Source: Schumannella luteola
Lineage (GTDB): Bacteria; Actinomycetota; Actinomycetes; Actinomycetales; Microbacteriaceae
Direction: 5' to 3'
NCBI RefSeq assembly: GCF_013408685.1
Contig: NZ_JACBZY010000001.1
Coordinates: 2,170,001-2,234,000, forward strand
Length of the DNA: 64,000 nt
Part shown: one piece after another, positions 11,565 to 55,568 of the stretch
How the letters are laid out: every line of letters begins with the position of its first letter
Position numbering within the stretch: the first letter of the stretch is position 1
Program-made: the position numbers and the translations under genes
Notes under the pieces: model-generated
What the model saw: the letters and a program-made list of their open reading frames with translations, nothing else
Told to the model about the DNA's origin: nothing
The model's database searches: none

Positions 11565-11567
11565 GAG

Positions 11568-34996: not shown

Positions 34997-35527
34997 ATGT
35001 CGATCACCGCATCCGAGACGTCGGCCTTGCTCGTGCACACGACGCCCGACGACCCGCGCTCGCAGCCGGTGCTCGCCGACCTCGAGCGCGAGTACGACAC
35101 CCGCTACCGCGGCTACTTCCCCGACAACCAGCCGGCGTCGACCGAGATCAACCGCTACCCGGCGAGCGAGTTCAGCGCTCCGCACGGCACCTTCCTGCTG
35201 CTGCTCGACGGGGACTCCGACGCCGGCGGCACCGCCATCTCGGCCGGCGCCTTCAAGCGCCTCGACGCCGAGACGGTCGAGCTCAAGCGCATCTGGACCC
35301 ACGCCGACCACCGCGGTCGCGGCCTCGCCCGCGTCGTCATGCGCGAACTCGAGGCCGAGGCCGAGCGCCGCGGCCACCGCCGCGTCGTGCTCAGCACCGG
35401 CCCGCGCCAGCCCGAGGCCGTGCGCCTCTACCTGGGCCTCGGCTACACCCCGCTGTTCGACGTGGATGCCGACCCCGAGACCGTCGGCATCCACTCCTTC
35501 GAGAAGAATCTGGAGACCCGCGCATGA
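34997..35527 (+). CDS. GNAT N-acetyltransferase
   Basis: A 176-residue acetyltransferase. The acetyl-CoA loop is HRGRGLARVVMRELE (about residues 105-119), followed by VVLSTGPRQPEAVRLYLGLGYTPLFD, the usual last strand and helix. The ATG follows GGGAG. Its stop overlaps the start of an amino-acid ABC permease (ATGA), so it is the first gene of that operon. In Bacillus the equivalent position in the ytm and yxe operons holds an acetyltransferase that N-acetylates S-substituted cysteine before oxidation; that role is inferred here from context. Confidence 0.85.
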   Translation: MSITASETSALLVHTTPDDPRSQPVLADLEREYDTRYRGYFPDNQPASTEINRYPASEFSAPHGTFLLLLDGDSDAGGTAISAGAFKRLDAETVELKRIWTHADHRGRGLARVVMRELEAEAERRGHRRVVLSTGPRQPEAVRLYLGLGYTPLFDVDADPETVGIHSFEKNLETRA

Positions 35528-36597
35528 GCGTCGCCGACGACACCGCCACCCGGCCCGCCGACGGCGGCGCGGGCGCCGACCCGGGCGCGACCGCATCCAC
35601 GGCATCCACCGCGCCCGCCGCGAACCGCAACCGGGTCGACCTCAGCGCCGTCAAGGTCGTGCCGACCCGGCACTGGTTCCGCTGGGTCTTCGGCGCCGTC
35701 GTCCTGTTCGTCGTCGCGCAGCTGATCTGGACGCTGTTCACGAACGACAAGTACGACTGGGGCACCTTCGGCCAGTACTTCTTCTCGGAGACGGTCGTGA
35801 ACGGTCTCGTGCTGACCCTTCAGCTCACCGTCGGGGCGACCGTGATCGGCTTCGGCCTCGGCATCCTGCTCGCCGCCGGGCGGCTGTCGAAGTCGTGGAT
35901 CCTCAGCTCGGCCTCGTGGGCCTACATCTGGTTCTTCCGCTCGGTTCCGCTCGTGGTGCAGCTGGTCGTCTGGTACAACCTCGGCTACCTCTTCCCGCAG
36001 ATCGGACTCGGCACCCCGTTCACCTACGACTTCTGGATCGTCCGGGTCGACACCGTCACCCTGATCAGCCAGATGGCAGCCGCCTTCCTCGGCCTCGGTC
36101 TGCACCAGGCCGCCTACTCGGCCGAGATCATCCGCGGCGGACTGCTCTCGGTCGACTCCGGCCAGCTCGAGGCCGCCGGCGCGCTCGGGCTCCCGCGGCG
36201 GGTGCGCTTCTTCCGCATCGTGCTGCCGCAGGCCGCTCGCTCGATCGTCCCCAACGCGGCGAACGAGGTCATCAGCCTCGTCAAGGGCGCCTCGGTCGTC
36301 TTCGTGATCGCGCTGCCCGAGCTGTTCTACGCCGTGCAGGTCATCTACAACCGCAACAGCCGCGTCATCCCGCTGCTCATCGTCGCCGTCGTCTGGTACA
36401 CGATCGTCGTCACCCTGCTGAGCATCGGCCAGTACTACCTCGAGCGGCACTACGCCAAGGGCAGCGTGCGCGTGCTGCCGCCGACGCCGCTGCAGCGGGC
36501 ACGCCACTGGGCGCGGATCCAGTGGGCGCGCCTCGGCGACGGCGACCCGACCGCGATCCCCGAACTCACTCGATCGACCGACAGGAGAGCACGATGA
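35524..36597 (+). CDS. Polar amino-acid ABC importer, permease
   Basis: A 357-residue permease of the His/Glu/Gln/Arg importer class. A disordered Ala/Thr-rich head (1-40) precedes five to six membrane helices; FRSVPLVVQLVVWYNLGYL is typical of this class. The EAA loop reads QLEAAGALGLPRRVRFFRIVLPQA (about 215-240). The permease domain ends about residue 320, before a basic tail. ATGA coupling to the GNAT gene upstream and to the ATPase downstream. Probably works as a homodimer, as no second permease is present. Confidence 0.9.
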   Translation: MSVADDTATRPADGGAGADPGATASTASTAPAANRNRVDLSAVKVVPTRHWFRWVFGAVVLFVVAQLIWTLFTNDKYDWGTFGQYFFSETVVNGLVLTLQLTVGATVIGFGLGILLAAGRLSKSWILSSASWAYIWFFRSVPLVVQLVVWYNLGYLFPQIGLGTPFTYDFWIVRVDTVTLISQMAAAFLGLGLHQAAYSAEIIRGGLLSVDSGQLEAAGALGLPRRVRFFRIVLPQAARSIVPNAANEVISLVKGASVVFVIALPELFYAVQVIYNRNSRVIPLLIVAVVWYTIVVTLLSIGQYYLERHYAKGSVRVLPPTPLQRARHWARIQWARLGDGDPTAIPELTRSTDRRAR

Positions 36598-37421
36598 GCA
36601 TCACCCTGGAGCGCCCGGATGCCACCGAGCAGGCGGATGTGGCATCGCCCGCCGACCGGCCGGGTCGCGTCGAGATCCACGACGTCTGGAAGAGCTACGC
36701 CGGCGTGCCGGTGCTGCGCGGCGTGAGCCTCGACATCGAGCCCGGCGAGATCGTCGCGATCCTCGGGCCCTCCGGCTCGGGCAAGTCGACCCTGTTGCGC
36801 ACGATCAACCACCTCGAGACGATCGATCGCGGCTCGGTCACGGTCGACGGCGAGTTCATCGGCTACGCCCGCCGCGGCGGCCGCCTGCACGAGCTGCGCG
36901 AGAGCGAGGTGCTGAAGCGCCGCACCGGCGTCGGCGTGGTCTTCCAGAACTTCAACCTGTTCCCGCACCTGACCGCGCTCGAGAACATCACCGAGGCCCC
37001 CGTCGCGCTGCGCCGCGCGACGAAGGCCGAAGCTCGCGAGCAGGCCAAGGCGCTGCTCGAGCGCGTCGGCCTCGGCGACAAGGGCGGCCGCTACCCGCGC
37101 CAGCTCTCCGGCGGCCAGCAGCAGCGCGTCGCGATCGCCCGCGCGCTCGCCCTCGACCCGCAGGTGCTGCTCTTCGATGAGCCGACCAGCGCGCTCGACC
37201 CCGAGCTCGTCGGCGAGGTGCTCGGCGTCATCCGCGACCTGGCCGACTCGGGCCGCACCCTCGTGATCGTCACCCACGAGATCGGCTTCGCCCGCGAGGT
37301 CGCCGACCGCGTCGTCTTCCTCGACGAGGGCGAGCTGCTCGAGCAGGGGCCGCCGAGCGAGGTGCTCGTGAATCCGCATCACCCGCGCACCCAGGAGTTC
37401 CTGGCGAAGGTTCTCGCCTGA
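36594..37421 (+). CDS. Polar amino-acid ABC importer, ATPase
   Basis: A 275-residue ABC ATPase: GPSGSGKSTLLRTINHLE, QNFNLFPHLTALENI (typical of the GlnQ/HisP class), [28 protein letters not shown] and VIVTHEIGFA. The first 30 residues are a disordered head. The frame is open far upstream, but the ATG at 36594 overlaps the permease stop (ATGA) and follows ACAGGAGAG. Powers the importer with the permease and the binding protein at 37537. Confidence 0.93.
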   Translation: MSITLERPDATEQADVASPADRPGRVEIHDVWKSYAGVPVLRGVSLDIEPGEIVAILGPSGSGKSTLLRTINHLETIDRGSVTVDGEFIGYARRGGRLHELRESEVLKRRTGVGVVFQNFNLFPHLTALENITEAPVALRRATKAEAREQAKALLERVGLGDKGGRYPRQLSGGQQQRVAIARALALDPQVLLFDEPTSALDPELVGEVLGVIRDLADSGRTLVIVTHEIGFAREVADRVVFLDEGELLEQGPPSEVLVNPHHPRTQEFLAKVLA

Positions 37422-37536: not shown

Positions 37537-38523
37537 ATGGCAGTGAGCAAGAAGCAGGTGGGGGTGATCGTCGCGGGCGTGGCGGTCGTCGCCATCGTCG
37601 GCGGCGTGATCGCCGGCGTCGTGCTGAACCAGCCCAAGGGCGCGGATGCCGCATCCACCGACAAGACCAAGAACGCCTCGGCCGAGAAGATCCTGCCGGT
37701 CGTGACGCACGGCGAGGTGCCCGAGGCGATCGCCGCGCTCAAGGCCAGCGGCTTCACGCCCGTCGAGCCCGGCAAGTTGACGGTCGCCACGAGCGTCTAC
37801 CTGCCGCCGCTCGGGTACCAGCCTGAGGGCGCGAAGGAGCCCGCGGGCACCGAGCCGAACTTCGGCAAGCTCATCGCCGACGGACTCGGCCTCGAGTACA
37901 ACCCGAAGGTCGTCGCCTGGGCCGACTGGCCTCTCGGCATCCAGTCGGGCAAGTACGACCTCATCACCTCGAACGTGACGGTGACCGAGGAGCGCAAGGA
38001 GCTCTACGACTTCGCGAGCTACCGCAACGACCTGCTCGGCTTCTACGTGAAGAAGGACAGCAAGATCACCTCGATCAAATCGTCCGCCGACATCTCGGGA
38101 CTGAAGATCATCGTCGGCTCCGGAACCAACCAGGAGTCGGTGCTGCTCGCCTGGAACAAGGAGCTCGAGGAGGCCGGCGAGAAGCCGGCCGAGCTCGTCT
38201 ACTACGACGACAACGCCGCGGGCGTGCTCGCCATCCAGTCGGGCCGTGCGGATGCGACGCTCGGGCCGAACGCGACCGCCGCCTGGTCGGCGAAGGAGAC
38301 CGGCGACACCAAGCTCGTCGGCACCCTCTCGGGCGGATGGCCGCTGACGGCGCAGATCGCGGCCGGCACCAAGAAGGGCAACGGCCTGATCGAGCCCGTC
38401 AACATCGTGCTCAACAAGCTCATCGACGACGGCACCTACGACAAGCTCCTGAAGGAGTGGGGCCTCGAGAGCGAGGGCATCCAGAAGTCGGAGATCAACC
38501 CTCCCGGACTGCCCAAGTCCTGA
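37537..38523 (+). CDS. Polar amino-acid ABC importer, membrane-anchored binding protein
   Basis: A 328-residue type II periplasmic-binding fold (SBP_bac_3): LTVATSVYLPPLGY, FGKLIADGLGLEYN, VAWADWPLGIQSGKYDLITSNVTVTEER, LKIIVGSGTNQESVLL, VLNKLIDDGTYDKLLKEWGL. The N-terminus has a membrane helix (about residues 8-30) without a lipobox cysteine, so the protein seems anchored by an uncleaved helix, as for MetQ in this window. AGAGGCAG precedes the ATG. The ligand is unknown; S-modified cysteine or cystine is suggested by context. A strong terminator follows at 38532-38567. Confidence 0.9.
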   Translation: MAVSKKQVGVIVAGVAVVAIVGGVIAGVVLNQPKGADAASTDKTKNASAEKILPVVTHGEVPEAIAALKASGFTPVEPGKLTVATSVYLPPLGYQPEGAKEPAGTEPNFGKLIADGLGLEYNPKVVAWADWPLGIQSGKYDLITSNVTVTEERKELYDFASYRNDLLGFYVKKDSKITSIKSSADISGLKIIVGSGTNQESVLLAWNKELEEAGEKPAELVYYDDNAAGVLAIQSGRADATLGPNATAAWSAKETGDTKLVGTLSGGWPLTAQIAAGTKKGNGLIEPVNIVLNKLIDDGTYDKLLKEWGLESEGIQKSEINPPGLPKS

Positions 38524-38645: not shown

Positions 38646-39860
38646 ATGAGCCCGCGCGTCCCCCTCTCAGTCCTCGACCTCGCCCCCTTCGGATCGGGTC
38701 GCACCGCCCGCGACGGGCTGCTCGAGACGATCGACCTCGCGCGGCACGCCGAGAGCTGGGGCTTCGCGCGGCACTGGTTGGCCGAGCATCACGGCAACCC
38801 GGGCATCGCGGGCTCGGCGCCGCACGTGCTGCTCGCCGCGATCGCCGCGCAGACGTCGACGATCCGGCTCGGCACGGCCGCGACGATCATCGGCAACTCG
38901 ACCCCACTTCAGGTCGCCGAGTCGATCGGCACCGTCGCCGCGCTGCACCCCGGTCGCGTCGACCTCGGCATCGGCCGCTCCGGCGCCCCGCGCCGGAAGC
39001 CCGGTGACACCGGCCCCGAGATCGTCGGCCCCGACCCGGGCGCCGTCGCGGGGCCGCGCGACAACCGTGTCGTCGACGGTCTCGTCATCCCGCCGCCGCA
39101 TCGCTTCGTCGCGGGCGAGCGCTTCCGCCTGCAGTCGGGGCTGCTCGGCCGCACGCCGGGGGATGCCGACTCCTTCGAGCAGGACGTCGCCGACATCCGC
39201 GCCTTCCTCGCCGGCGACTACGTCTCGCCCGAGGGGCTGCCGTTCGAGGCCGCACCCGCGGCCGGGACGGACGTCGAGGTCTGGATCCACGGTTCGAGCG
39301 CCGGTCCGAGCGCCCGCCTCGCCGGACAGCTCGGCCTGCCCTTCGGCAGCAACTACCACGTGCTCCCGTCCTTCGTGCTCGACGCCGTCGCCGAGTACCG
39401 CGCCGCCTTCGTGCCGAACGCCGAGCGCGACCGCCCGCACGTGATCGTCTCGGCCGACGTCGTCGTCGCCGACACCGACGCGCAAGCGCGCGAGCTCGCG
39501 GCGGGATACGGTGCCTGGGTGCTGAGCATCCGGGAATCGCGTGGAGCGATTCCGTTCCCCACCCCCGCCGACGCCGCCGCGAACCCGCTGACCCCCGAGC
39601 AGCTGACCGTCGTGCAAGACCGCCTCGACACCCAGTTCGTCGGCTCGCCGGAGACCGTCGTCGAGCGCCTCGAGACCCTGCGCCGCGCGACCGGCGCCGA
39701 CGAGCTGCTGATCACGACCGCGGTGCACGATCACGCCGACCGGCTGCGCTCCTATGAGCTGCTCGCCGACGCCTGGGCGGCGTCGGGCACGGCGTCCACC
39801 GGCACGGCATCGACGGGTGACGGCGCCGCCGCCGTCCGAGGCGCCGAGGTCGCCGCGTGA
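38646..39860 (+). CDS. Luciferase-like flavin monooxygenase, MsnO8 type
   Basis: A 404-residue member of the luciferase-like (LLM) family, which uses FMNH2 or F420H2 in a TIM barrel. The MsnO8-type opening is clear: PLSVLDLAPFGSGRTARDGL, HAESWGFARHWLAEHH, IAAQTSTIRLGTAATIIGN, LHPGRVDLGIGRSG. It ends with an Ala/Thr/Gly-rich tail. ATG start; the frame upstream overlaps the binding-protein gene and is noise. Its stop overlaps the next GNAT gene (GTGA). It probably oxidises an organic sulfur or nitrogen compound; the substrate is unknown and FMN versus F420 cannot be settled by eye. Confidence 0.87.
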   Translation: MSPRVPLSVLDLAPFGSGRTARDGLLETIDLARHAESWGFARHWLAEHHGNPGIAGSAPHVLLAAIAAQTSTIRLGTAATIIGNSTPLQVAESIGTVAALHPGRVDLGIGRSGAPRRKPGDTGPEIVGPDPGAVAGPRDNRVVDGLVIPPPHRFVAGERFRLQSGLLGRTPGDADSFEQDVADIRAFLAGDYVSPEGLPFEAAPAAGTDVEVWIHGSSAGPSARLAGQLGLPFGSNYHVLPSFVLDAVAEYRAAFVPNAERDRPHVIVSADVVVADTDAQARELAAGYGAWVLSIRESRGAIPFPTPADAAANPLTPEQLTVVQDRLDTQFVGSPETVVERLETLRRATGADELLITTAVHDHADRLRSYELLADAWAASGTASTGTASTGDGAAAVRGAEVAA

Positions 39861-40900
39861 GCGTCGAGATCCGCGAAGCACGCCCCGAGGAGTTCGACGA
39901 GGTCGGCGAGCTGACGGTCCGCGGCTTCCTGGCCGGCCCCTACGGCCATCTGCCACGCAGCGAGTCCCGGCTCGCGCTCGAGCGGGATGCCGCGGGTCGC
40001 GCCCGCGACGGCGCCCTGCTCGTCGCGGTCGACGGCGACGATCGACTGGTCGGCACCGCGAGCGTCCTGCGCGCCGGCACGCCCTACGCCCGCCTCGCCG
40101 CGGAGGGATCCGATGAGGCCGAGCTGCGCCTCATCGTGGTCGACCCCGAGACGCGGGCGATCGGAGTCTCGGATGCGCTCGTCGCGGCCTCGCTCGAGAC
40201 GGCTCGCGGGTGGGGCGTCGGCTCCCTCGTGCTCGACACCGGCGCCCGCAACGAGCGCGCCCAGCGGCTGTACCGCCGTGCCGGGTTCCAGCGCGCGACC
40301 GAGCGGGAGCACGACGAGCCGGGCATCGGCGGCATCCACGTCTACCGTTTCGGATTCGGCGCCGACGCGGACGCGCTGCTGATCCGCCTCGTGCACCACG
40401 ACGAGCTCGAGACCGTTGGCCGGCTCACCGCCGCCGCCTACACGAGCGACTACCCCGACCTTCCCGCCGACTACCTCGCCTCGCTCATCGATGTCGCCGG
40501 TCGAGCATCCCGCGACGAGGTCTGGGTCGCCGAGCGCCGCGCGGACGGCGCGCTGGTCGGCACCGTCTGGACTCCGCGCGAGGGCCAGACCATCTCCGCC
40601 GTCGCCCGGCCCGGCGAGCTCGACTTCCGCCTGCTCGCCGTCGACCCGGACGCCCGCGGTCTCGGCGTCGGCGCGGCGCTCACGCGTCACGTGCTGCGCC
40701 TCGGCCGCGAGCGCGGCGTCAGCCAGGTCGTCATGAACAGCGGGCCCGAGATGCTCGGCGCTCACGCCCTCTACGCCAAACTCGGCTTCACGCGGCTGAG
40801 CGAGCGCGAGGGTCCGATCGAGGTCGCACCCGGTCGGTTCATCGAGATCTACGCCTTCGGATATCCGCTCGCGGGAGCCTCGTCGGTCTCGGCCGCCTGA
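39857..40900 (+). CDS. Double-domain GNAT acetyltransferase
   Basis: A 347-residue fusion of two GNAT domains, 1-165 and about 175-340. The C-terminal domain has an intact acetyl-CoA loop (DPDARGLGVGAALTRHVL) and LGAHALYAKLGFTRL. In the N-terminal domain the equivalent loop reads DPETRAIGVSDALV, a weaker match. The GTG overlaps the upstream monooxygenase stop. Its last 52 bases overlap the end of the convergent MFS gene. In the proposed sulfur pathway it would be a second acetyltransferase, possibly with different acceptor range. Confidence 0.85.
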   Translation: MSVEIREARPEEFDEVGELTVRGFLAGPYGHLPRSESRLALERDAAGRARDGALLVAVDGDDRLVGTASVLRAGTPYARLAAEGSDEAELRLIVVDPETRAIGVSDALVAASLETARGWGVGSLVLDTGARNERAQRLYRRAGFQRATEREHDEPGIGGIHVYRFGFGADADALLIRLVHHDELETVGRLTAAAYTSDYPDLPADYLASLIDVAGRASRDEVWVAERRADGALVGTVWTPREGQTISAVARPGELDFRLLAVDPDARGLGVGAALTRHVLRLGRERGVSQVVMNSGPEMLGAHALYAKLGFTRLSEREGPIEVAPGRFIEIYAFGYPLAGASSVSAA

Positions 40901-42435
40901 CCCGTCGCCCGATCCGCCGCCAGGCCCGCAGCTGAGTCCACGTCGGCTGCCGAGGAGGCCGGTGCGGCGACCGTGCCGCGCCGCAGCACCGGCAGCAGCG
41001 CGATCGCGAGCGCACCGCCGAGCAGCCCCGTGCAGACCGCGAGCGCTGCCGCCAGCCCCGCGCGCGAGACCGTCGTGACGCCCGCTCCGTCCGACCCGGC
41101 GAGCAGCAGCCCGCTGACCAGGGCGACGCAGAAGGTCGCCGAGAGGCGCTGCGTCAGCTGCAGGAACGAGGCCGCCGAGCCGTGCAGCGCGGCGGGCGCG
41201 AAGCCGAGCGTGATCGCGCGCAGCGGCGGTTCGAGCAGACCGGTCGCGACACCGCTCACGGCCTCGGCGACGACGATCACGACGAGCAGGCTCAGCAGGG
41301 GAGCGTCGACCCCGAGCACGATCAGGATGCCGATGCTCGCGACGATCTGCAGCCCGAGGCCCAGCGCGACGATCGAGCCGCCGACGCGGGCGTGCGTGCG
41401 GGCGCTGAGCAGCGAGGCGGCGATGCGCACGAGCGACGCCGGCACGAGCAGCAACGCGGTCAGCGGCGCGCCGAGCGCCGCCCCCTGCAGCAGGAACAGG
41501 GTGATGGCCGAGGAGTGCGCGAGCACCGATCCGAACCAGAGCGCGGCGACGGCGTTGCCGCTCACGAAGCCGGCCGAGCGGATGAGCGCCGGGGCGAACA
41601 GCGGCACCCGACGCCGCCGCGCCTCCCGCGTCTCCCACAGCACGAGCGCGGCGATGATCAGCACGCCGCCGGCGACCACGGCGGGCACGCCCGAGCTGGC
41701 GACGCCCGGGTCGATCACCGGCAGGGTCGCGAGCAGCACGAGCGTGCCGAGCAGGGCGACGCCCGGGAGGTCGAGCGAGAGACGGCCGCGGTGCCCGGAT
41801 CGGGCCCGGTCGTGCGGCCGCGGCGAGCGTGACGGGACCGGTAGCCTCCGCAGCGCCACGATGAGCGTCGCGAGCGAGAACGGCGCGCTGATGCCGAGCA
41901 CCGCGCGCCATCCCAGCCACTCCGGCAGCAGCGTCAGCAGTCCGGCGGCGACCGCCGGGCCGAGCACGGCCGCCGTCGCCCCGGCCGCCGTGTAAGCCGC
42001 GAAGGCGCGCACCCGGGCGGGGCCGTGGAAGCCGTCCTGGATGAGCCCCAGCACCTGCGCGCTGATCAGGCCGGCGCCCAGACCCTGCACGACCCGTCCG
42101 CCGACCGCCGCCGCGACGATGGGGGCGAGAGCGGAGGCGAGCGCGCCGAGCAGGAACAGCGCCAGGCCGACGACGAGCGGACCACGGCGCCCCAGCGCAT
42201 CCCCGAGCCGCCCCGCGGGCACGAGCCCGAGCCCGAAGGTCAGCGAGTAGGAGGCCAGGAACCACTGGATCGCGGCCGTGTCGGCGCCGAGCTCGCGCGT
42301 CACCGCGGGCGCCGTGTAGTTGACGACGGCTGAGTCGATGAGTGTCGCGAGTCCGGCGCCGAGCGCGATGACGAGCACGACCTGCGCCGAGGGGTGCGTC
42401 GTCACGTCGTCGGCGGCCGCAGCCGCCCCGCTCAT
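40849..42435 (-). CDS. MFS exporter (DHA2-like)
   Basis: A 528-residue transporter with about 14 hydrophobic segments. Motif A is PAGRLGDALGRRGPL (about residue 75), and VVQGLGAGLISAQ and AAVLGPAVAAGLL mark motifs B and C. The last 40 residues are a disordered Ala-rich tail, and the part overlapping the convergent GNAT gene is in this tail. The ATG overlaps the M20 peptidase stop (ATGA), so it is the last gene of the seven-gene operon. It could export an N-acetylated intermediate or a toxic product; this is inference. Confidence 0.87.
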   Translation of the reverse strand: MSGAAAAADDVTTHPSAQVVLVIALGAGLATLIDSAVVNYTAPAVTRELGADTAAIQWFLASYSLTFGLGLVPAGRLGDALGRRGPLVVGLALFLLGALASALAPIVAAAVGGRVVQGLGAGLISAQVLGLIQDGFHGPARVRAFAAYTAAGATAAVLGPAVAAGLLTLLPEWLGWRAVLGISAPFSLATLIVALRRLPVPSRSPRPHDRARSGHRGRLSLDLPGVALLGTLVLLATLPVIDPGVASSGVPAVVAGGVLIIAALVLWETREARRRRVPLFAPALIRSAGFVSGNAVAALWFGSVLAHSSAITLFLLQGAALGAPLTALLLVPASLVRIAASLLSARTHARVGGSIVALGLGLQIVASIGILIVLGVDAPLLSLLVVIVVAEAVSGVATGLLEPPLRAITLGFAPAALHGSAASFLQLTQRLSATFCVALVSGLLLAGSDGAGVTTVSRAGLAAALAVCTGLLGGALAIALLPVLRRGTVAAPASSAADVDSAAGLAADRATGQAAETDEAPASGYPKA

Positions 42436-47551: not shown

Positions 47552-48495
47552 CGCGTCCTCCGTCCTTCGGCGTCGACCGCGCGGGCGAGCCGGTTGGCTG
47601 CCAGCACGGTCAGTGCGATCACGAGCCCGGGCAGCGTCGTCAGCCACCAGGCGCCCTGCAGGTAGTCGCGCCCGGTCGACACGAGCGAGCCCCACTCCGG
47701 CGTGGGCGGAACCGCGCCGTAGCCGAGGAAGCTCAGCGACGAGATCGCCAGCACGGCCGTGCCGAGCTCGAGCGTCGCGAGCGCGATGACCGGCCCGGTC
47801 GAGTTCGGCAGCACGTGCCGCAGCAGCACGCGCAGCGGATGGTTGCCGGCGACGACCGCCGCCTCGACGTAGGTCGAAGTGCGCACCTTCACCACCTCGG
47901 CCCGCAGCACCCGGGCGATGCCGGCGGCGCTCGCCAGGCCGACCGCGATCGCGACGTTCGTGGTGCCGAAGCCGAGGGCCGTGATGAGCGCGAGCGACAG
48001 CAGCAGGCTCGGGATCGCGAGCAGCACATCCGTCACCCGCATGACGACGTCGTCGACCCAGCGGCCGACGTAGCCGGCTACGAGTCCGAGCACGGCGCCC
48101 GACGCCAGCCCGATGCCGATCGCGAGCACCGCCGAGCGCAGGGTGAGCCCGGTGCCGTGCACGACCCGGGTGAACAGGTCGCGGCCGAGCTGATCGGTGC
48201 CGAAGAGGTGCGCCGCGCTGGGGCCCTGCAGCTTCTCGCGCGGAACCCCGGCGAGCGGATCTCCGGCGGCGATCAGCTGCGGCAGCACGGCCCCGACGAC
48301 CACGAGCAGCAGCCAGACGGCGGCGAGGATCGCATCGAGCGGCAGGGCGCGCAGCAGGCGCCGGGCACGATCGCCGAGGCCGGCGGAACCGCGGCGGGAC
48401 GCCTCGGCATCGGCGAAGCGGTCGGCGGCGGTGGTGGCGAAGGTGTCGCCGGGCGTCGCCGTCCGGGCGGAGCGGTCGAGGGTGGGCGTGCTCAC
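47548..48495 (-). CDS. Peptide-type ABC importer, permease 2 (DppC-like)
   Basis: A 315-residue permease. After a polar head of 50 residues come six membrane helices; HLFGTDQLGRDLFTRVVHGTGLTLRSAVLAIGIG is the strongly conserved DppC/OppC opening, and EAAVVAGNHPLRVLLRHVLPNS is the ATPase-docking EAA loop. GTG start overlapping the stop of permease 1 (GTGA). The longer open frame upstream is noise. Confidence 0.92.
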   Translation of the reverse strand: MSTPTLDRSARTATPGDTFATTAADRFADAEASRRGSAGLGDRARRLLRALPLDAILAAVWLLLVVVGAVLPQLIAAGDPLAGVPREKLQGPSAAHLFGTDQLGRDLFTRVVHGTGLTLRSAVLAIGIGLASGAVLGLVAGYVGRWVDDVVMRVTDVLLAIPSLLLSLALITALGFGTTNVAIAVGLASAAGIARVLRAEVVKVRTSTYVEAAVVAGNHPLRVLLRHVLPNSTGPVIALATLELGTAVLAISSLSFLGYGAVPPTPEWGSLVSTGRDYLQGAWWLTTLPGLVIALTVLAANRLARAVDAEGRRTR

Positions 48496-49595
48496 GAGCG
48501 GGCTCCCGTCGTCTCGAGTTCGGTGCGGGGATGCGCGGCGTGCGCGGGCGTCGTCTCGGCCGCGGTGGCGGATGTCGGAGTCGGCGAGAGCCCAGCGGCG
48601 GAGGCGGGAGCATCTGCGTCGACCGCACCGGCGAAGGCTTCGCGGGCCCGCGCGCGCGCACGGGGCCCAGCGAGACGGATGCGCGGGTCGAGCAGCGGGT
48701 ACAGCAGATCGACGACGAGGCTGACGACCACGAAGACGAGCGCCGCGAACAGCACCACGCCTTGCACGATCGGGATGTCCTGCGCCGTCACCGCGGTCGC
48801 GGTGAGCCGGCCGATCCCGGGCCGCGAGAAGACCGTCTCGGTCACGACCGTGCCCGAGAGCAGTCCGCCCACGATCACGCCCGTGTAGGTCAGCGCCGGC
48901 AGGGCGGCGTTGCGGAGCGCGTGCGCGAAGTGCACCCGGCCGCGCCCGGCGCCCTTCGCCCACACCGCATCCACGTAGGGCTCGCGCAGTGTCGTCGCGA
49001 GGCTCTTCGACAGCAGCTGCGCGATCGCGGCCCCGGTCGGCAGGGCGAGCGCGATCGACGGCAGGATCGCGGCCGTCCAGGTCTTGTCGCCGAGCGCCGG
49101 CAGCCAGCGCAGCTGAAACGAGAACCACTGGATGAGCAGCAGCCCGAACCAGAAGCCGGGCACCGCGACGCCGACCGGCGGCAGCGCCAGCAGCACCCGT
49201 GCGAGCACCCTGCTGCGGGTCAGGGTCGCGGCGATCGCGACGCCGGTGCCGCCGAGGATCGCGAGCACGATGCCGAGCGCGGTGATCTGCAGCGTCGACG
49301 GCAGCGCCGCGGCGATGAGGTCGGCGACGGGCCGCCCCGAGCCGATCGAGCGGCCGAGATCGCCGCGCAGCACCTGGCCGATGCCGTCGACGTACTGCAG
49401 CCAGAGCGGCCGGTCGAGGCCGAGCTCGTGCCGCAGCGCATCCAGCTGGGCGTCGCTGAGATCGGTCGCGTCGGGCCCGGCGAGGATGCGCACCGGGTCG
49501 CCCGGCAGCGCCCACAGGATCAGGAAGGTCGCCGTGTAGGCGGCCCAGAGCACCCCGACCGCCTGCAGCAGCCGGCGCAGCAGATAGCGCGTCAC
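48492..49595 (-). CDS. Peptide-type ABC importer, permease 1 (DppB-like)
   Basis: A 367-residue permease with the DppB/OppB opening (RYLLRRLLQAVGVLWAAYTATFLILWALPGDPV), an extracytoplasmic domain around residues 40-95, five more helices, and the EAA loop EPYVDAVWAKGAGRGRVHFAHALRNA. A 45-residue Ala/Thr/Pro-rich tail is extra compared with the family. GTG start with AGGGGGA 6 bases upstream, 21 bases after the stop of the monooxygenase gene at 49617. Confidence 0.92.
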   Translation of the reverse strand: MTRYLLRRLLQAVGVLWAAYTATFLILWALPGDPVRILAGPDATDLSDAQLDALRHELGLDRPLWLQYVDGIGQVLRGDLGRSIGSGRPVADLIAAALPSTLQITALGIVLAILGGTGVAIAATLTRSRVLARVLLALPPVGVAVPGFWFGLLLIQWFSFQLRWLPALGDKTWTAAILPSIALALPTGAAIAQLLSKSLATTLREPYVDAVWAKGAGRGRVHFAHALRNAALPALTYTGVIVGGLLSGTVVTETVFSRPGIGRLTATAVTAQDIPIVQGVVLFAALVFVVVSLVVDLLYPLLDPRIRLAGPRARARAREAFAGAVDADAPASAAGLSPTPTSATAAETTPAHAAHPRTELETTGARS

Positions 49596-49616: not shown

Positions 49617-50720
49617 TCAGTTCGCCGCGACGACGCGGGCGTCGAACGAGGGGTCGGCGGCGGCGACGCGCGAGTTCCAGCCGAGCCGCGGCGCGACCAG
49701 GCCGACGACGTCGGCGAGGATCTGCTCGTAGTCGCCCGGCGAGAACTCGTAGGGCAGCTCGAGCCGCAGCTCGTCGACCTGCGCGAGCAGCGGATCGGCG
49801 AGCAGCCGGGCCACGATCTCCTCGGCCGAGCCGACGAGGTCGGGCGCGAAGAGCGTGTTCTTCGGTCCGTGCCCGCGGCCCAGTCGCGGCAGTCGGGCGT
49901 GCGCGTAGGCGCGGTAGCGCTCGCGCGCCGCACGGTCGGCGCCGTCGATCGGCACGATCACCCGCCCCAGCGCGACGCGACGCGACGCGGCCGTCGCCGC
50001 ATCCACCACGCCCTCGTCCACGGCGACGGCGAGCGCCGAGCGATACCGGCCGAGCAGCGTCGTCTGGGCCGAGGTGAAGTCGTCGGTGCCCTCGCCGCTG
50101 ATGACGTTGCCGATGAGGATGCTGCGCCCGGCGCGCGCCGCCCACTCGATCGACGCGAGCGACCCGCCGCCGTACCAGACGCGGTCGGCGAGGCCCGGGC
50201 TGAAGGGCTGCACGCGCGGCCGCTGCACGTTGCCGGGGGAGTGGATCACGGTGTCGGCGTCGCCGAAGAACGCGCCGGAGAGGTGGTGGATGAGTCGCTC
50301 GGCCCGCCCGTGGGAGAAGTCCCAGTTGCGCCAGTCGCCCTCGAAGACCTCGTCGCCGATCAGCTCGGCGTGCGGCGGCAGACCCGCGCTCACCCCGATC
50401 TGCAGGCGGCCGCCCGAGAGCACGTCGGCGACCGCGAGATCCTCGGCCAGCCGGAACGGGGTCTCGTAGCCGAGCGGGATGACGGCGGTGCCGAGCTGGA
50501 TGCGGCGCGTGCGCTGCCCCGCGGCGGCCACGAAGACGGCCGCGCTCGAGACCCCGTGCTCGAGGTGACGCTGCCGGATCCACGCGCCGTCGAGCCCGAG
50601 GCTCTCCCCGAACTCGAACAGGCGCAGCGTCGCCTCCAATCCCTCACGCGGCCGGTCGTCGTCGAAGTTGCCGGGGGTGAGGAAGTGCAGGGCCTGGAGG
50701 GAGGGCCGGTCGGTGGTCAT
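49617..50720 (-). CDS. Luciferase-like flavin monooxygenase (first gene of the importer operon)
   Basis: A 367-residue LLM-family protein: LQALHFLTPGNFDDD, LFEFGESLGLDGAWIRQRHLEHGVSS, RRIQLGTAVIPLGYETPFRLAEDLAVADVLSGGRLQIGVSAG, then DRVWYGGGSLASIEWAARAGRSILIGN and the C-terminal LELPYEFSPGDYEQILADVVGLVAP. The family cleaves C-S or C-N bonds, or hydroxylates, using reduced FMN (or F420). ATG start; TACCGT on the minus strand (50732-50727) leaves 6 bases to the ATG, so the operon mRNA appears leaderless. It is divergent from the monooxygenase operon at 50917. Confidence 0.86.
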   Translation of the reverse strand: MTTDRPSLQALHFLTPGNFDDDRPREGLEATLRLFEFGESLGLDGAWIRQRHLEHGVSSAAVFVAAAGQRTRRIQLGTAVIPLGYETPFRLAEDLAVADVLSGGRLQIGVSAGLPPHAELIGDEVFEGDWRNWDFSHGRAERLIHHLSGAFFGDADTVIHSPGNVQRPRVQPFSPGLADRVWYGGGSLASIEWAARAGRSILIGNVISGEGTDDFTSAQTTLLGRYRSALAVAVDEGVVDAATAASRRVALGRVIVPIDGADRAARERYRAYAHARLPRLGRGHGPKNTLFAPDLVGSAEEIVARLLADPLLAQVDELRLELPYEFSPGDYEQILADVVGLVAPRLGWNSRVAAADPSFDARVVAAN

Positions 50721-50726: not shown

Positions 50727-50839
50727 ACGGTAGTTCCGCACCGCGCCGCGCCCCAGAACGGGTGACCGCGTTCGACGCCGTTCGACGCCGTGTGACGTTC
50801 GGCGTCGTCGTTTGACGCTCTCTGACCGACTGTTACGGC
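50727..50839. promoter_or_regulatory. Divergent promoter region of the two monooxygenase operons
   Basis: Leftward: TACCGT (50732-50727), no good -35. Rightward: TTGACG (50812-50817) and TACGGC (50834-50839) spaced by 16 bases. Between them lie two direct copies of TTCGACGCCG (50771-50780 and 50781-50790), then CGTGTGACG (50789-50797), also found at 34875-34883 before the GNAT operon, and the complementary GGCGTCG at 50801-50807. These repeats are candidate sites for one regulator of the whole 34997-55568 locus. Confidence 0.5.
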
Positions 50840-50916: not shown

Positions 50917-52197
50917 ATGCCCCGACCACTGCACCTGGGCGTCGCCCTCGACGGCGCCGGCTGGCATCCGCAGGCCTGGCGCACGGCCGGCCTGGCCGCC
51001 GGCGAGCTGTTCACCGCCGCCTACTGGACCCGCCTCGCCCGCCGCGCCGACGACGCCGGGCTCGACCTGCTGACGATCGAGGATGCCTTCGCGCAGCAGA
51101 CCGCGGCGCCGTTCACGCCCGACGACCGACGCGATCAGGTGCGCGGCCGACTCGACGCGGGCATCATCGCCTCCTTCCTCGCGCCGTTGACCCGGTCGAT
51201 CGGCCTCGTGCCGACGCTGAGCACGACCCACAGCGAGCCCTTCCACCTCGCCACCGCCGTGCAGACCCTCGACTACGCCAGCCGAGGGCGTGCCGGCTGG
51301 CGGCCCAAGGTGTCGGCCGACCCGCGCGAGGCGCGCCAGTTCGGCCGGCGCGAGATCCCCGCGCCCGACGTCGCCCGCTTCCAGGACCCGACGAACCCGT
51401 TGCTGCTCGAGCTCTTCGGCGAGGCGGCCGAGGTGATCGAGGCCGGCCGGCAGCTCTGGGACAGCTGGCAGGACGACGCGATCATCCGCGACGTCGCCAC
51501 CGGCCGCTTCATCGACCGCGACCGGGTGCACCGCATCGGCTTCGAGGGTGAGCATTTCAGCGTCGAGAGCGCGTCGATCGTGCCGCGCTCTCCGCAGGGG
51601 CAGCCGCTCGTCACCGTGCTCGCGCACGCCCGCATCCCCTACGAGCTCGCCGCGGGCGGCGCCGACGTGGTCTACGTCACGCCGCACGACGAGGCGGATG
51701 CCGTGCGCATCCTCGGCGAGGTGCGTGAGGCCGAGCGGGCGGTCGGCCGCGTCGACCGCATCCACCTCGCCCGTCCGCTCGAGGTGTGGGCGGATGCGGT
51801 GGTGCTGCTCGACGACAGCGTCGACGCCGCCCGCGCCGCCCTGACCGAGCTGGAGCAGCTCGACGGCACCGCCTTCGCCTCCGATGCGCTCATCCACGCC
51901 GGAACCGCCGAGAGCCTCGCCGAGCAGCTGCTCGCCTGGCAGCGGCTCGGCTACGACGGCGTGCGCCTGCGGCCGGCCCGGCTGCCCGCCGACCTCGACC
52001 GCATCTCCGACGACCTCGTGCCGTTGCTGCGCGACGCCGGCGTGCTCGACCGGCCCGACAGCACGACCCTGCGCGGGCGGCTCGGCCTGCCGCGCCCCGA
52101 CAGCCGTTATGCGGTCGGCCAGACGGCTGACGCCCCCGCGCCCAGCGCACTCGCCACCAGCACGCCCGCAACCAGCACCCAGGAGCTCTCCGCATGA
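50917..52197 (+). CDS. Luciferase-like flavin monooxygenase (SnaA-related)
   Basis: A 426-residue LLM protein: LHLGVALDGAGWHPQAWR, YWTRLARRADDAGLDLLTIEDAF, GIIASFLAPLTRSIGLVPTLSTTHSEPFHLATAVQTLDYASRGRAGWRPKVS, RQLWDSWQDDAIIRD, and HFSVESASIVPRSPQGQPLV, the long insertion typical of the NtaA/SnaA side of the family. The tail is Ala/Thr-rich. ATG start after GAGGA; the frame upstream is noise. It is the first of four overlapping genes, and its stop overlaps the NtaA/DszA-type gene (ATGA). Confidence 0.87.
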   Translation: MPRPLHLGVALDGAGWHPQAWRTAGLAAGELFTAAYWTRLARRADDAGLDLLTIEDAFAQQTAAPFTPDDRRDQVRGRLDAGIIASFLAPLTRSIGLVPTLSTTHSEPFHLATAVQTLDYASRGRAGWRPKVSADPREARQFGRREIPAPDVARFQDPTNPLLLELFGEAAEVIEAGRQLWDSWQDDAIIRDVATGRFIDRDRVHRIGFEGEHFSVESASIVPRSPQGQPLVTVLAHARIPYELAAGGADVVYVTPHDEADAVRILGEVREAERAVGRVDRIHLARPLEVWADAVVLLDDSVDAARAALTELEQLDGTAFASDALIHAGTAESLAEQLLAWQRLGYDGVRLRPARLPADLDRISDDLVPLLRDAGVLDRPDSTTLRGRLGLPRPDSRYAVGQTADAPAPSALATSTPATSTQELSA

Positions 52198-53564
52198 CCG
52201 CCGAACGCCGCCAGGTGCACCTCGCCGCCCACTTCCCGGGCGTCAACTCGACGACCGTGTGGAGCGACCCGACCGCGCAGAGCCAGGTCGAGTTCTCGTC
52301 GTTCGAGCACTTCGCCCGCACCGCCGAGCGCGGGTTCTTCGACTACCTGTTCCTCGCCGAGGGCCTGCGGCTGCGCGAGCACCGCGGCGAGATCCACGAC
52401 CTCGACGTCGTGGGCCGGCCGAACACGCTCGGCATCCTCGCCGCCGTCGCGGCCGTGACCCGGCACATCGGAGTCGTCGGCACGCTCAGCTCGACCTTCA
52501 ACGAGCCGGCCGAGCTCGCCCGTCAGCTCGCGACGCTCGACCACCTCTCCGGAGGTCGCGCGGGCTGGAACGTCGTCACGAGCTCCGACGCCTTCCACGG
52601 CGGCAACTTCCGCCGCGGCGGCTTCCTGCCGCACCCCGAGCGCTACGAGCGGGCGAGCGAGTTCGTCGCGCTCGCCAAGAAGCTCTGGGACAGCTGGGAT
52701 GACGACGCCGTGCTCGGCGACGCCGCGGCCGGCGAGTTCCTGCGCGCGGGAGCCGTGCACGACGTGCGGCACCGCGGCAAGCACTTCGACGTCGACGCGC
52801 GGCCGACGGTGCCGCGCAGCCCGCAAGGGCGTCCGGTCATCGTGCAGGCCGGCGACTCGCCCGACGGCCGCGACTTCGCCGCCGAGCACGCCGAGGTGAT
52901 CTTCTCCCGGCACGCCGAGTTCGACGACGGGCGGCGGTTCTACTCCGACGTGAAGGGCCGCCTCGCCGGGCGCGGACGCAGCGAGGGGTCGCTGCTCATC
53001 CTGCCCGCCGTGTCGTTCGTGCTCGGCGACAGCGCGGCGGATGCCGAGGAGAAGGCCTGCGAGATCTCGCTGCAGCAGATCAGCAAGCCGACCGCGATCA
53101 CCTTCCTCGAGCAGGTCTGGAACCGCGACCTCAGCGCCTACGACGCCGACGGACCGCTGCCCGAGGTCGACCCCGATCCCGGCGAGCAGATCACCCGCGG
53201 ATGGGCGCGCGCCTTCGAAGAGAACCAGGCCAAGATCAGCGCCTGGCGTGCCAAGGCCGAGGCCGAGAACCTCAGCATCCGCCAGCTCGTCATCGCCGTC
53301 GCCAACCGCCACGGCTTCGTCGGCACCGCCGCGCACATCGCGAGCGAGATCGACCGCTACGTGCAGAACCGCGCCAGCGACGGCTTCGTCGTGGTCGGGC
53401 ACCTCACCCCGCACGGACTCGACGAGTTCACCGACGCCGTCATCCCCGAGCTGCAGGAGCGCGGCGTCTACCGCACCGAGTACCCCGAGGGCGCGACCCT
53501 GCGCGAGAACCTCGGGCTGCCGGCACCCCACCGCCTGACCGACGAGATCGGAGCCACCGCATGA
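52194..53564 (+). CDS. NtaA/SnaA/DszA-family FMN monooxygenase
   Basis: A 456-residue monooxygenase of the NtaA/SnaA/DszA/DmoA family, two-component enzymes that use FMNH2 from a separate reductase. Landmarks: HFPGVNSTTVWSDP, FEHFARTAERGFFDYLFLAEGLRLRE, VGTLSSTFNEPAELARQLATLDHLSGGRAGWNVVTS, FHGGNFRRGGFLPHPERYERASEFV, KKLWDSWDDDA, HFDVDARPTVPRSPQGRPVIVQAG. Characterised relatives split C-S or C-N bonds (dibenzothiophene sulfone, dimethyl sulfide, nitrilotriacetate, N-acetyl-S-succinocysteine in Bacillus YxeK). No flavin reductase is in the window. Coupled to both neighbours by ATGA. Confidence 0.92.
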   Translation: MTAERRQVHLAAHFPGVNSTTVWSDPTAQSQVEFSSFEHFARTAERGFFDYLFLAEGLRLREHRGEIHDLDVVGRPNTLGILAAVAAVTRHIGVVGTLSSTFNEPAELARQLATLDHLSGGRAGWNVVTSSDAFHGGNFRRGGFLPHPERYERASEFVALAKKLWDSWDDDAVLGDAAAGEFLRAGAVHDVRHRGKHFDVDARPTVPRSPQGRPVIVQAGDSPDGRDFAAEHAEVIFSRHAEFDDGRRFYSDVKGRLAGRGRSEGSLLILPAVSFVLGDSAADAEEKACEISLQQISKPTAITFLEQVWNRDLSAYDADGPLPEVDPDPGEQITRGWARAFEENQAKISAWRAKAEAENLSIRQLVIAVANRHGFVGTAAHIASEIDRYVQNRASDGFVVVGHLTPHGLDEFTDAVIPELQERGVYRTEYPEGATLRENLGLPAPHRLTDEIGATA

Positions 53565-54487
53565 CCATCACCGAGCCCGCCAGCGCCGCACCCGCCAGCG
53601 CCGCACCTGCCAGCGCCGCGCCCGCCAGCGCCGCGCCCGCCAGCGCCGCACCTGCCACGCCGACCTCCGCCGCCTTCGACCGGCGCGCGATCGACCGCGC
53701 CGGCTTCGCCCGCGAATGGGCCGACTGGCACGCCGCTCACGAGGCCCAGCGCGCGAGCGAGCACGGCTTCCTCGCCGTGACGGGCCTGCATTGGCTCAGC
53801 GCCGAACCGCAGGGCATCGACGGCGTCCCCGGACTCTGGAGCACCTCCGATGCCGGCCCCGTGATCGAGCTCGCCGACGGCGAGACGCTGCAGCGCAACG
53901 GCGCCACCGTCAGCGGTCGCGTCGAGCTCGGCCCGCTCGCCGAGCGCACCGGCATCGACCTCGTGCACGGCGACATCGTCATCGAGGTCGCTCGCCGCGG
54001 CGGCAGTGACATCGTGCGCCCGCGCGACCCCGCGTATCCGCTGCGCGTGAACCACACCGGCACGCCCGTCTACCCGCCGAACCCGCGCTGGCTCGCCGCC
54101 GGACGCTTCGTCGCCTATGACGCCCCGCGCGAGGTCACGGTCGGCGCCGCCGTCGAGGGCCTCGAGCACGTCTACGCCGCGCCCGGCGAGATCGAGTTCG
54201 AGCTGCAGGGCGAGACCTTCCGGCTCATCGCCTTCGACGGCAAGGCGCCCGGCGCCCTGCTCGTGCTCTTCACGGATGCGACGAGCGGCATCACCACCTA
54301 CGACGCCAACCGCGCGCTGACGGTCGCCGCGCCCGACGCCGAAGGCCGCGTGCTGCTCGACTTCAACCGCGCCGTCAACCTGCCCTGCGCCTACACCGAC
54401 TTCGCGACCTGTCCGCTGCCGCCCGCCGGCAATCGCATCCCCGTCGGCGTCGAAGCCGGCGAGAAGACCCCGACCGAGCGGGGCTGA
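53561..54487 (+). CDS. DUF1684 protein
   Basis: A 308-residue protein. After a disordered head of six ASAAP-type repeats (to about residue 38), the DUF1684 domain follows: REWADWHAAHEAQRASEHGFLAVTGLHWL, GDIVIEVARRGGSDIVRPRDP, NPRWLAAGRFVAYDAPREV, FDGKAPGALLVLFTDATSGITTYDANRAL, LDFNRAVNLPCAYTDFATCPLPPAGNRIPVGVEAGEK. The family has no established activity. The conserved end (NPPCAYTPFATCPLPP-like, with two cysteines) is its signature. ATGA coupling upstream, and the next monooxygenase starts 1 base after its stop, so it works in the same pathway. Confidence 0.85.
   Translation: MTITEPASAAPASAAPASAAPASAAPASAAPATPTSAAFDRRAIDRAGFAREWADWHAAHEAQRASEHGFLAVTGLHWLSAEPQGIDGVPGLWSTSDAGPVIELADGETLQRNGATVSGRVELGPLAERTGIDLVHGDIVIEVARRGGSDIVRPRDPAYPLRVNHTGTPVYPPNPRWLAAGRFVAYDAPREVTVGAAVEGLEHVYAAPGEIEFELQGETFRLIAFDGKAPGALLVLFTDATSGITTYDANRALTVAAPDAEGRVLLDFNRAVNLPCAYTDFATCPLPPAGNRIPVGVEAGEKTPTERG
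53581..53655. repeat. 15-bp minisatellite at the 5' end of the DUF1684 gene
   Basis: Five head-to-tail copies of CAGCGCCGCACCCGC at 53581, 53596, 53611, 53626 and 53641, differing at one or two bases. They encode the ASAAP repeats and are likely to vary in number between strains. Confidence 0.9.
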
Positions 54488-54488
54488 C

Positions 54489-55568
54489 ATGCGCTTCCAG
54501 GTTCTCGACATCGTCCCCTACCGCCCCGACCCGATCACGGGCCGTCAGTCGACGCCCGCCGACCGGCTCGACGAGACGCTGCAGGTCGCCGTCGCGGCCG
54601 AGCGGCTCGGCTTCGACTCCTTCGCCGTGGGGGAACGGCACGCCGGGCCCTTCCTCTCCTCCTCGCCGACCGTGCTGCTCGGCGCGCTCGCCGCCTCCAC
54701 CTCGACCATCCGGCTGCAGACCGGCGTGACCGTGCTGCCGGTGCTCGATCCGGTGCGCGTCGCCGAGGACTACGCCACCATCGACCAGCTCAGCCGCGGC
54801 CGCCTCGAGCTGACGATCGGCAAGGGCAACGAGCTGAAGCAGTTCCCGCTGTTCGGGCTCGAGATCGACGACCAGTGGGAGCTGCTCGCCGAGAAGTACG
54901 CCGTGCTGAAGCGGCTCTGGAGCGAGGAGGACGTGACGATCCCCGCCGGCGAGTTCGTGCGCGAGCTGCGTGACGTCACCACGCTGCCGCGCCCCTACGC
55001 CGGCGCCCCGCGCATCTGGCACGGCTCGGCGACGACCCTGTTCTCGGCCGCCCTCGCCGCGAAGCACGGCGACCCGCTGTTCAGCGCCAACGCGATCCAG
55101 CCGCTGCGCAACTACGCCGTGCTGATCGAGCACTACCGCAGCGAGCTCGCGCGCCACGGGCACGATCCGGCCGGCGCCTACGTCGGGGCCGGGGCCGGTG
55201 CGCTGTTCATCGCCGACACGACCCAGCAGGCGCGCGACCTCTACGGACCGGTCTACGAGGCGATCGTCGCCGCGACCAACGTGCCCGGCAACACGACGCC
55301 GTTCCGCGACATCGACCACGCGATCGCCGAGGGTCCCGCGCTCGTCGGCAGCCCGCAGCAGGTCGTCGACAAGATCGCGCGCTTCCACGAGCTGTACCGG
55401 CACGACCTGCAGTCGGTCAGCATCCCGACCACGGTCGTGTTCCCGCAGCAGCTCGAGATCCTCGAGCGCTTTGCGACCGAGGTGATCCCGGCGCTGCGCG
55501 ACCGCTTCCCGACCACCCTGTGGTCGTCGGCCGATGCGGGCGCCCGGCCGCACCTCGCCGCCGCCTGA
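54489..55568 (+). CDS. Luciferase-like flavin monooxygenase (last gene of the operon)
   Basis: A 359-residue LLM protein: FQVLDIVPYRPDPITGRQ, ETLQVAVAAERLGFDSFAVGERHAGPFLSSSP, STIRLQTGVTVLPVLDPVRVAEDYATIDQLSRGRLELTIGKGN, LPRPYAGAPRIWHGSAT, and GPALVGSPQQVVDKIARFHELYRHDLQSV. The ATG lies 1 base past the DUF1684 stop. With the genes at 38646, 49617, 50917 and 52194 it makes five luciferase-fold enzymes in one locus, each divergent from the others, which suggests different substrates or successive steps. Confidence 0.87.
   Translation: MRFQVLDIVPYRPDPITGRQSTPADRLDETLQVAVAAERLGFDSFAVGERHAGPFLSSSPTVLLGALAASTSTIRLQTGVTVLPVLDPVRVAEDYATIDQLSRGRLELTIGKGNELKQFPLFGLEIDDQWELLAEKYAVLKRLWSEEDVTIPAGEFVRELRDVTTLPRPYAGAPRIWHGSATTLFSAALAAKHGDPLFSANAIQPLRNYAVLIEHYRSELARHGHDPAGAYVGAGAGALFIADTTQQARDLYGPVYEAIVAATNVPGNTTPFRDIDHAIAEGPALVGSPQQVVDKIARFHELYRHDLQSVSIPTTVVFPQQLEILERFATEVIPALRDRFPTTLWSSADAGARPHLAAA

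Follow-up and report, generated by a model that had tools for sequence, protein, structure and literature searches.

In Bacillus, S-substituted cysteines are salvaged by a route comprising N-acetylation, sulfoxidation by CmoO, cleavage of the C-S bond by CmoJ to N-acetylcysteine sulfenic acid, reduction and deacetylation (PMC10863075). ScmP, YhaA and YtnL are M20 deacetylases whose gene clusters also code for GNAT proteins and monooxygenases (PMC12757645), and the yxe locus has been described as well (PMC9706529). The present analysis concerns a locus of the soil actinobacterium Schumannella luteola (Microbacteriaceae), situated in a stretch of 64,000 nucleotides (contig NZ_JACBZY010000001.1, positions 2,170,001 to 2,234,000 of the forward strand, hereafter the window). 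The genome is a single contig of 3.75 Mb with an estimated completeness of 100%, and the locus comprises 18 genes in three sets, g01-g06 and g14-g18 on the plus strand and g07-g13 on the minus strand (Table 1). We regard it as reasonably probable that this locus is an actinobacterial salvage system for S-substituted cysteines, with a core pathway working like Bacillus CmoO/CmoJ and ScmLKP.

Gene set and proposed pathway

The 18 genes checked are all open reading frames, and profile searches place their products in the families of Table 1. The inventory originally predicted at positions 34997-55568 was confirmed in this way: five luciferase-like monooxygenases (LLM), two GNAT proteins, two ATP-binding cassette (ABC) importers, an M20 hydrolase, a major facilitator superfamily (MFS) transporter and a DUF1684 protein. 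It had nevertheless omitted g18, a flavin adenine dinucleotide (FAD) amino-oxidase gene whose like recurs in relatives. The ATGA/GTGA overlaps said to join nearly all the genes are real, but 4-base overlaps occur at only 9 of the 14 within-operon junctions. The other gaps measure 0, 1, 21, 115 and 122 bp and, because of the last two, operon 1 may be divided before the binding protein gene g04 and before g05. A third-position G+C filter applied to whole stop-to-stop frames is passed by 10 of the 18 genes and failed by 8. PF00296 matches occupy 24 places in the genome, six of them in the five LLM genes of the locus; assuming scattered genes and taking the other 18 places as background, five LLM genes would fall within 17 kb with a Poisson probability of about 6e-6 for the genome.

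Like the Bacillus subtilis CmoO/CmoJ system (ytm/ytn), the locus combines an amino-acid ABC importer (with one permease gene only), GNAT genes, LLM of the MsnO8 and NtaA types and an M20 hydrolase. The predicted likeness to Bacillus in gene classes stands for the GNAT, the importer and the NtaA-type LLM, the MsnO8-type g05 being a candidate counterpart of CmoO; an M20 is present too, but it comes from another subfamily. The window differs further by a peptide-type importer (two permeases and one double ATPase), three additional LLM, DUF1684, the FAD oxidase and the distribution of the genes over several operons, and no thioredoxin or glutaredoxin is found among the best matches of its 18 proteins. 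With the Bacillus scm (yxe) S-(2-succino)cysteine pathway, the locus shares the logic of import, N-acetylation, flavin mononucleotide (FMN) monooxygenase and deacetylation. The scm pathway differs by its single monooxygenase and its ScmP-group M20, no S-oxidation step being seen in the excerpts of PMC12757645 and PMC9706529, and the term DUF1684 is absent from both papers. A last comparison is offered by the LLM and binding-protein pair of TIGR04027/TIGR04028 (KPN_01858/KPN_01854): g13 and g09, which belong to one operon, have these models as their nearest, and both remain below the cut-offs for membership.

Judged from sequence, the window holds candidates for each step of the Bacillus route. 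In the pathway that we infer, the two ABC importers would take up S-alkylcysteines, either as such or in N-acylated or peptide form, and a GNAT would N-acetylate the imported S-alkylcysteines. The MsnO8-type enzyme g05 would make the sulfoxide, and the CmoJ-like g15, perhaps with its divergent partner g14, would cleave the C-S bond and yield N-acetylcysteine sulfenic acid. This acid would be reduced by the Cx7C pair of the DUF1684 protein g16, after which the M20 hydrolase g08 would free cysteine. The remaining LLM and the FAD oxidase may act on other S-substituents; because g13, g14 and g17 lie below their nearest NCBIfam cut-offs, we can only infer the several substrates or steps originally predicted for the locus. 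Reduced FMN (FMNH2) would be supplied by a reductase encoded elsewhere, and a regulator binding phased TGAC repeats would switch the operons jointly. One PF01613 gene at C1:3036639 agrees with the prediction that the flavin reductase is encoded outside the locus.

Table 1. Features of the locus, with positions in the window and supporting scores (bits, unless stated otherwise)
Feature	Position	Strand	Evidence
Candidate operator, 10/11-bp phased (T)GAC(G) repeats upstream of g01	34827..34903	+	repeat score 17.5
g01 GNAT N-acetyltransferase	34997..35527	+	PF00583
g02 amino-acid ABC permease	35524..36597	+	TIGR01726 over cut-off; best equivalog cystine permease, 131 vs cut-off 300
g03 amino-acid ABC ATPase	36594..37421	+	best TcyN, 319 vs cut-off 406
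g04 amino-acid solute-binding protein	37537..38523	+	PF00497
g05 MsnO8-family LLM, candidate CmoO-like S-oxygenase	38646..39860	+	TIGR03558, 304, cut-off 167
g06 double-domain GNAT	39857..40900	+	PF00583 in two stretches
g07 MFS transporter, DHA2-like	40849..42435	-	TIGR00711, 69 vs cut-off 230
g08 M20 hydrolase, PRK07906 type, candidate N-acetylcysteine deacetylase	42432..43910	-	NF005913, 561, cut-off 382
g09 peptide/nickel-type solute-binding protein	43911..45575	-	best TIGR04028, 348 vs cut-off 468.5
g10 double ABC ATPase	45572..47551	-	Dpp/Gsi/Nik-type families
g11 ABC permease, NikC/DppC type	47548..48495	-	family search
g12 ABC permease, NikB/DppB type	48492..49595	-	family search
g13 LLM, distantly TIGR04027-like	49617..50720	-	88.6 vs cut-off 413; PF00296 over cut-off
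Candidate operator, 10-bp phased repeats between divergent g13 and g14	50762..50827	+	repeat score 12.5
g14 divergent NtaA-like LLM, usually paired with g15	50917..52197	+	TIGR03860, 211 vs cut-off 280
g15 NtaA/DmoA-family LLM, CmoJ-like candidate C-S cleaving enzyme	52194..53564	+	TIGR03860, 423, cut-off 280
g16 DUF1684, candidate sulfenic-acid reductase	53561..54487	+	PF07920, 153, cut-off 25
Cx7C codons in g16, Cys276 to Cys284	54386..54412	+	invariant in alignments
g17 LLM, CE1758-like	54489..55568	+	244 vs cut-off 479
g18 FAD amino-acid oxidase, SoxA/MTOX-like	55683..56822	+	PF01266; 216, below NCBIfam cut-offs

The C-S cleaving candidate and the sulfur setting of the genome

The assignment of g15 to the CmoJ-type enzymes of the NtaA family is based on its score above the TIGR03860 cut-off and on its best match among solved structures, YtnJ, which we take to be CmoJ. 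YtnJ gave 299 bits (expectation value E 5e-88), followed by 3sdo (259), 7e36 (244), DszA (243), DmoA (198) and ethylenediaminetetraacetate (EDTA) monooxygenase (179); ScmK was absent from the sequences compared. The presence in this list of EDTA monooxygenase and of 3sdo, named a nitrilotriacetate monooxygenase, the membership of g15 in the NtaA/DmoA family and the FAD amino-oxidase gene that follows could all be accommodated by nitrogen or aminopolycarboxylate catabolism, in which an NtaA/EmoA-like N-dealkylation would operate with the amino-oxidase and the importers. Both of these enzymes nevertheless score below YtnJ. In addition, the possibility that related genomes pair these genes only with nitrogen or aromatic catabolism was not borne out, since sulfur-type genes adjoin the set in some of them. 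Finally, in Rhodococcus IGTS8 growing with dibenzothiophene as sulfur source, a cystine-importer pair and the sarcosine oxidase numbered next to it, a possible counterpart of g18, are up (PMC8557817). We consider N-dealkylation very improbable.

The genome as a whole gives further indications. No match to PF01507, the 3'-phosphoadenosine-5'-phosphosulfate (PAPS) reductase domain, was found in it, with 14 of 14 controls positive, and none to the sulfite/nitrite reductase domain PF01077, with 11 of 14 controls positive. PF01077 is missing in 8 of the 12 genomes searched, including that of S. luteola and two of the same genus (G118 and G048). The single matches in G007, G077 and G140 belong to frames some 890 to 930 residues long, which we read as NirB-like. 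From these domain searches the organism appears incapable of sulfate reduction, and salvage of organic thiols is plausible for it. Since neither domain is found, a route yielding a thiol fits the genome and a route yielding sulfite does not. Together with YtnJ as the best solved match of g15, the lack of both domains supports the sulfur-salvage function originally predicted.

The same data bear on a desulfurisation of sulfonates, sulfones or dimethyl sulfide (Ssu, Sfn or Dmo type), in which LLM would release sulfite from sulfonates or sulfones. SsuD-like and SfnB-like genes do lie beside the set in some relatives. Adjacent locus tags of NtaA-type and LLM genes are up or expressed on sulfate replacement in Gordonia NB4-1Y (PMC7661421), and NtaA-type proteins are up in Rhodococcus IGTS8 on dibenzothiophene (PMC8557817), these data being comparable with the window by gene class. 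Against such a scheme, sulfite would be unusable in a genome without PF01077, and the GNAT and M20 genes would have no role. Moreover, g15 scores far below the SsuD (52, cut-off 518) and SfnG (72, cut-off 383) models. Desulfurisation is accordingly judged improbable.

The MFS exporter gene and the GNAT could also be taken to mean that the locus plays no part in nutrition and serves to detoxify or export secondary metabolites or xenobiotic S-conjugates, and some LLM act in natural-product pathways. This explanation, to which we give a small chance, is opposed by the two importers with binding proteins, which indicate uptake, and by the genome, in which the domains for sulfate and sulfite reduction were not found. 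Nor was any Mca match found there at E 0.001, which leaves a mercapturate export by the mycothiol route unsupported. For the same lack of an Mca match, a salvage of mercapturates derived from the organism's own mycothiol was rejected.

Genes neighbouring the set in relatives comprise, over their cut-offs and with one representative each, an O-acetylhomoserine sulfhydrylase (MetY), a TIGR01891 amidohydrolase and another NtaA-type LLM. By Pfam, the neighbours further include a thioredoxin-domain protein in G007 and a rhodanese in G052; the latter genome also has a methylisocitrate lyase, over its cut-off, with no evident sulfur link. By similarity, the neighbours at 80 DUF1684 loci (see below) were MetY-like in 11 cases, PatB-like in 7, SsuD-like in 6, SufS-like in 5, M20D in 3 and SfnB-like in 1, counts which include the query-source genomes L051, L058 and L086 as well as sister species and which have no matched background. 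Elsewhere in the genome of S. luteola, an NtaA-like LLM with 27% identity to g15 adjoins a MetY-like gene (42%; C1:3113000-3124000; L147, about 4617-6062), and an MsnO8-like LLM with 36% identity to g05 is located near a second amino-acid importer (L146, 4434-9837).

The DUF1684 protein, the g14/g15 pair and the phased repeats

Among the components added to the Bacillus-like set, the DUF1684 protein g16 could account for the reduction step, as the sulfenic acid produced by CmoJ requires reduction (PMC10863075). Its Cys276 and Cys284 are invariant in 14 of 14 rows of one alignment and in 33 of 33 rows of another (the window and 32 of the 80 named loci). The Cx7C motif is kept at all 80 named loci and in two haloarchaeal DUF1684 structure sequences, and one haloarchaeal structure, 4fj4, was solved with mercury. 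The Haloferax DUF1684 protein HVO_1043, which has a Cx7C as well, is induced about 40-fold by hypochlorite and was placed in a thiol relay owing to this motif; it differs from g16 as a stress-induced archaeal protein, and no LLM context is described for it in the excerpt of PMC9426492. In one Microbacteriaceae genome (G029, C1 near 223797), DUF1684 and a rhodanese domain are found in a single frame.

The distribution of DUF1684 follows that of g15 in a sample of 150 Microbacteriaceae genomes. Orthologues, defined by at least 180 bits (at least 42% identity, lower-scoring partial matches of similar identity remaining uncounted), occur in 20 of these genomes, that of S. luteola included. Among the 17 genomes that carry a g15 orthologue (at least 55% identity), 14 have one, as against 6 of the 133 others (Fisher 1e-12); shared ancestry inflates this co-occurrence, which stands at 11 of 14 when three genomes of the same genus are dropped.

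On these grounds, the chances are about even that DUF1684 reduces the sulfenic acid of CmoJ. That its role is instead structural or that of a flavin-binding partner, or that it is a mere bystander, is an evenly balanced possibility: with the queries used, no LLM was found within about 10 kb of 28 of the 80 orthologues, and we know of no activity reported for any DUF1684 protein. The invariant Cx7C, the rhodanese fusion and the co-occurrence with g15 speak against it, as does the predicted model of g16 (mean predicted local distance difference test score 84.9), whose matches at E <=0.001 are only haloarchaeal DUF1684 structures. A role of DUF1684 as the missing flavin reductase was rejected, no flavin-reductase fold being matched and the flavoredoxin match (E 0.29) being noise.

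The other distinctive element is the pairing of g15 with g14, found on the same strand at 35 of the 80 loci, that is at 35 of the 37 loci holding g15. All 25 readable g15 rows show the GWN signature, whereas 21 of the 22 readable g14 rows have a changed one, no motif being readable in 21 of 46 g15 rows and 24 of 46 g14 rows. The g14 protein may be a partner subunit or an enzyme for another substrate.

Both repeat arrays of Table 1 stand out in the window, where the next best score outside them is 5.0 over the whole 64 kb and where 20 codon shuffles gave a top score of 7.0; both are conserved in G118. The score was devised after these arrays had been seen, and the relatives, many of them sister species, constitute an independent test. 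It covered 45 regions with a g15 match (G118, L049, G001 and the duplicates L051, L058, L063 and L086 excluded), in which the stretches upstream of pathway genes make up 5.8% of the sequence. These stretches contained 20 of the 56 arrays scoring at least 5, 13 of 34 at 5.5, 10 of 15 at 6 and 6 of 6 at 7. Control spacings at score 5 gave 7 of 67 for 8/9 (3.9 expected), 4 of 53 for 13/14 (3.1) and 4 of 65 for 7/12 (3.8), and spacing 8/9 at score 5.5 gave 5 of 34 (2.0). Weaker arrays also precede SsuD-like genes in G052, G077 and G140. Since such arrays stand at the head of two operons here and are found again upstream of pathway genes in other genomes of the group compared, they suggest a single regulon. 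Cysteine-rich leader peptides, an idea that arose from a "putative leader peptide" in a Streptomyces relative, were rejected, no small frame with at least two cysteines being found in six upstream stretches (two of which are one stretch on both strands).

Two further observations concern the repeats. In the genome of S. luteola, an array of score 10, the best of 17 stretches scanned, lies upstream of another LLM (L140, 5380-5445); it partly overlaps a hairpin-like stretch and was excluded from the support. A CaiB/formyl-CoA-transferase-like gene with a long serine/alanine-rich stretch (33308-34810) stops 16 bases before the first array of the window.

Distribution in relatives and significance

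The regions compared within the family were those around the 19 other DUF1684 orthologues and one paralogue of 37% identity (G001). All 18 window proteins are matched within 40 kb in G118, in whose genus the present genome is placed, and in G142. Some of them, arranged in a different order, are matched in G007, G019, G052, G060, G073, G077, G105, G123 and G140, and other loci, for example in G014, G031, G096 and G100, hold little besides DUF1684. A wider survey was made of named loci, the best 80 of at least 573 DUF1684 relatives, which come from Microbacteriaceae, Streptomyces, Micromonospora, Nocardia, Geodermatophilaceae, Frankia and others, some ending at contig edges and several representing sister species. 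An LLM lies within 2.5 kb of DUF1684 at 43 of these 80 loci and anywhere in the locus at 52. Overlapping subsets of the gene classes are also carried by plasmids of Rhizobium (two stretches), Pantoea, Streptomyces and Tsukamurella. The order GNAT, permease, ATPase and binding protein of the Pantoea plasmid is that of g01-g04, and the Streptomyces plasmid has permease, ATPase, binding protein, GNAT, LLM, NtaA, LLM and MsnO8. As a Bacillus-type plasmid locus for comparison, a Peribacillus match was dropped, its context being different. Because such subsets occur on plasmids outside the family, the basic gene set appears to be a locus of a known type, and what we consider new is DUF1684, the repeat operator and the pairing of g14 with g15.

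Several observations weigh against a salvage of S-substituted cysteines by this locus. The lack of PF01507 is not specific to the carriers: 125 of the 150 family genomes are without it, and the 25 that have it include 1 of the 17 with a g15 orthologue (G142) and 24 of the 133 others. The PatB C-S lyase-, SfnB-, SsuD- and SufS-like neighbours in relatives all fall below their own cut-offs, as do g13, g14, g17 and g18 with respect to NCBIfam. The g05 product exceeds the cut-off of the MsnO8 family (TIGR03558), to which CmoO/YtmO presumably belongs, yet among the 150 family genomes a close homologue (E 1e-60) is found in 10, and among the 17 that carry a g15 orthologue in only 6. In many carriers, sulfoxidation may therefore be performed by other LLM or the step may be missing. 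The g08 hydrolase, of PRK07906 type, lies outside the ScmP/YtnL group, which we take to be of TIGR01891 type, and the genome of S. luteola has no TIGR01891 match over the cut-off; a relative, G142, does have an M20 of this type, unlike g08. A DUF1684 orthologue lies within 20 kb in 9 of the 17 g15 genomes and not in the other 8. The 28 named loci where no LLM was found imply that DUF1684 works, or survives, outside such loci too, and among them no cluster besides DUF1684 is common to at least 4 loci, as seen with a coarse gene caller. Lastly, the five plasmid stretches list neither DUF1684 nor M20, in gene tables that are incomplete (that of Pantoea lists an amidohydrolase).

Two DUF1684 genes in other settings may be mentioned. 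A second one in the genome of S. luteola (C1:2717289-2720793; L130, 8289-9122), with 34% identity to g16 and a conserved Cx7C, is about 1.6 kb from a g13-like LLM (28%; 10678-11793), a minus-strand gene lying between them. In Tersicoccus (L125, 10834-12378), an orthologue without LLM is adjoined by a glutathione-peroxidase gene (Pfam) and by a gene that we read as ATP-grasp-like.

A broader proposal is put forward tentatively, as being rather unlikely in its entirety: DUF1684 would form a new family of Cx7C reductases, unrelated to thioredoxin, for CmoJ-like products (N-acetylcysteine sulfenic acid or related oxidised sulfur), and with g14/g15 and the TGAC regulon it would constitute an alternative C-S cleavage module across Actinomycetota, supplying cysteine without sulfate assimilation. 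A search of titles and the start of abstracts, weak in that it was confined to open-licence papers, returned nothing on an actinobacterial version of the Bacillus route or on a reductase role of DUF1684; the term DUF1684 occurred in a single paper of this collection.

The locus offers a function for the little-studied DUF1684 at a point where a sulfenic acid would need reduction, and the phased repeats provide a handle on a sulfur regulator. Since only 25 of 150 genomes match the PAPS-reductase domain, most of the Microbacteriaceae may lack sulfate assimilation, and the sulfur source of these bacteria becomes testable through this locus.

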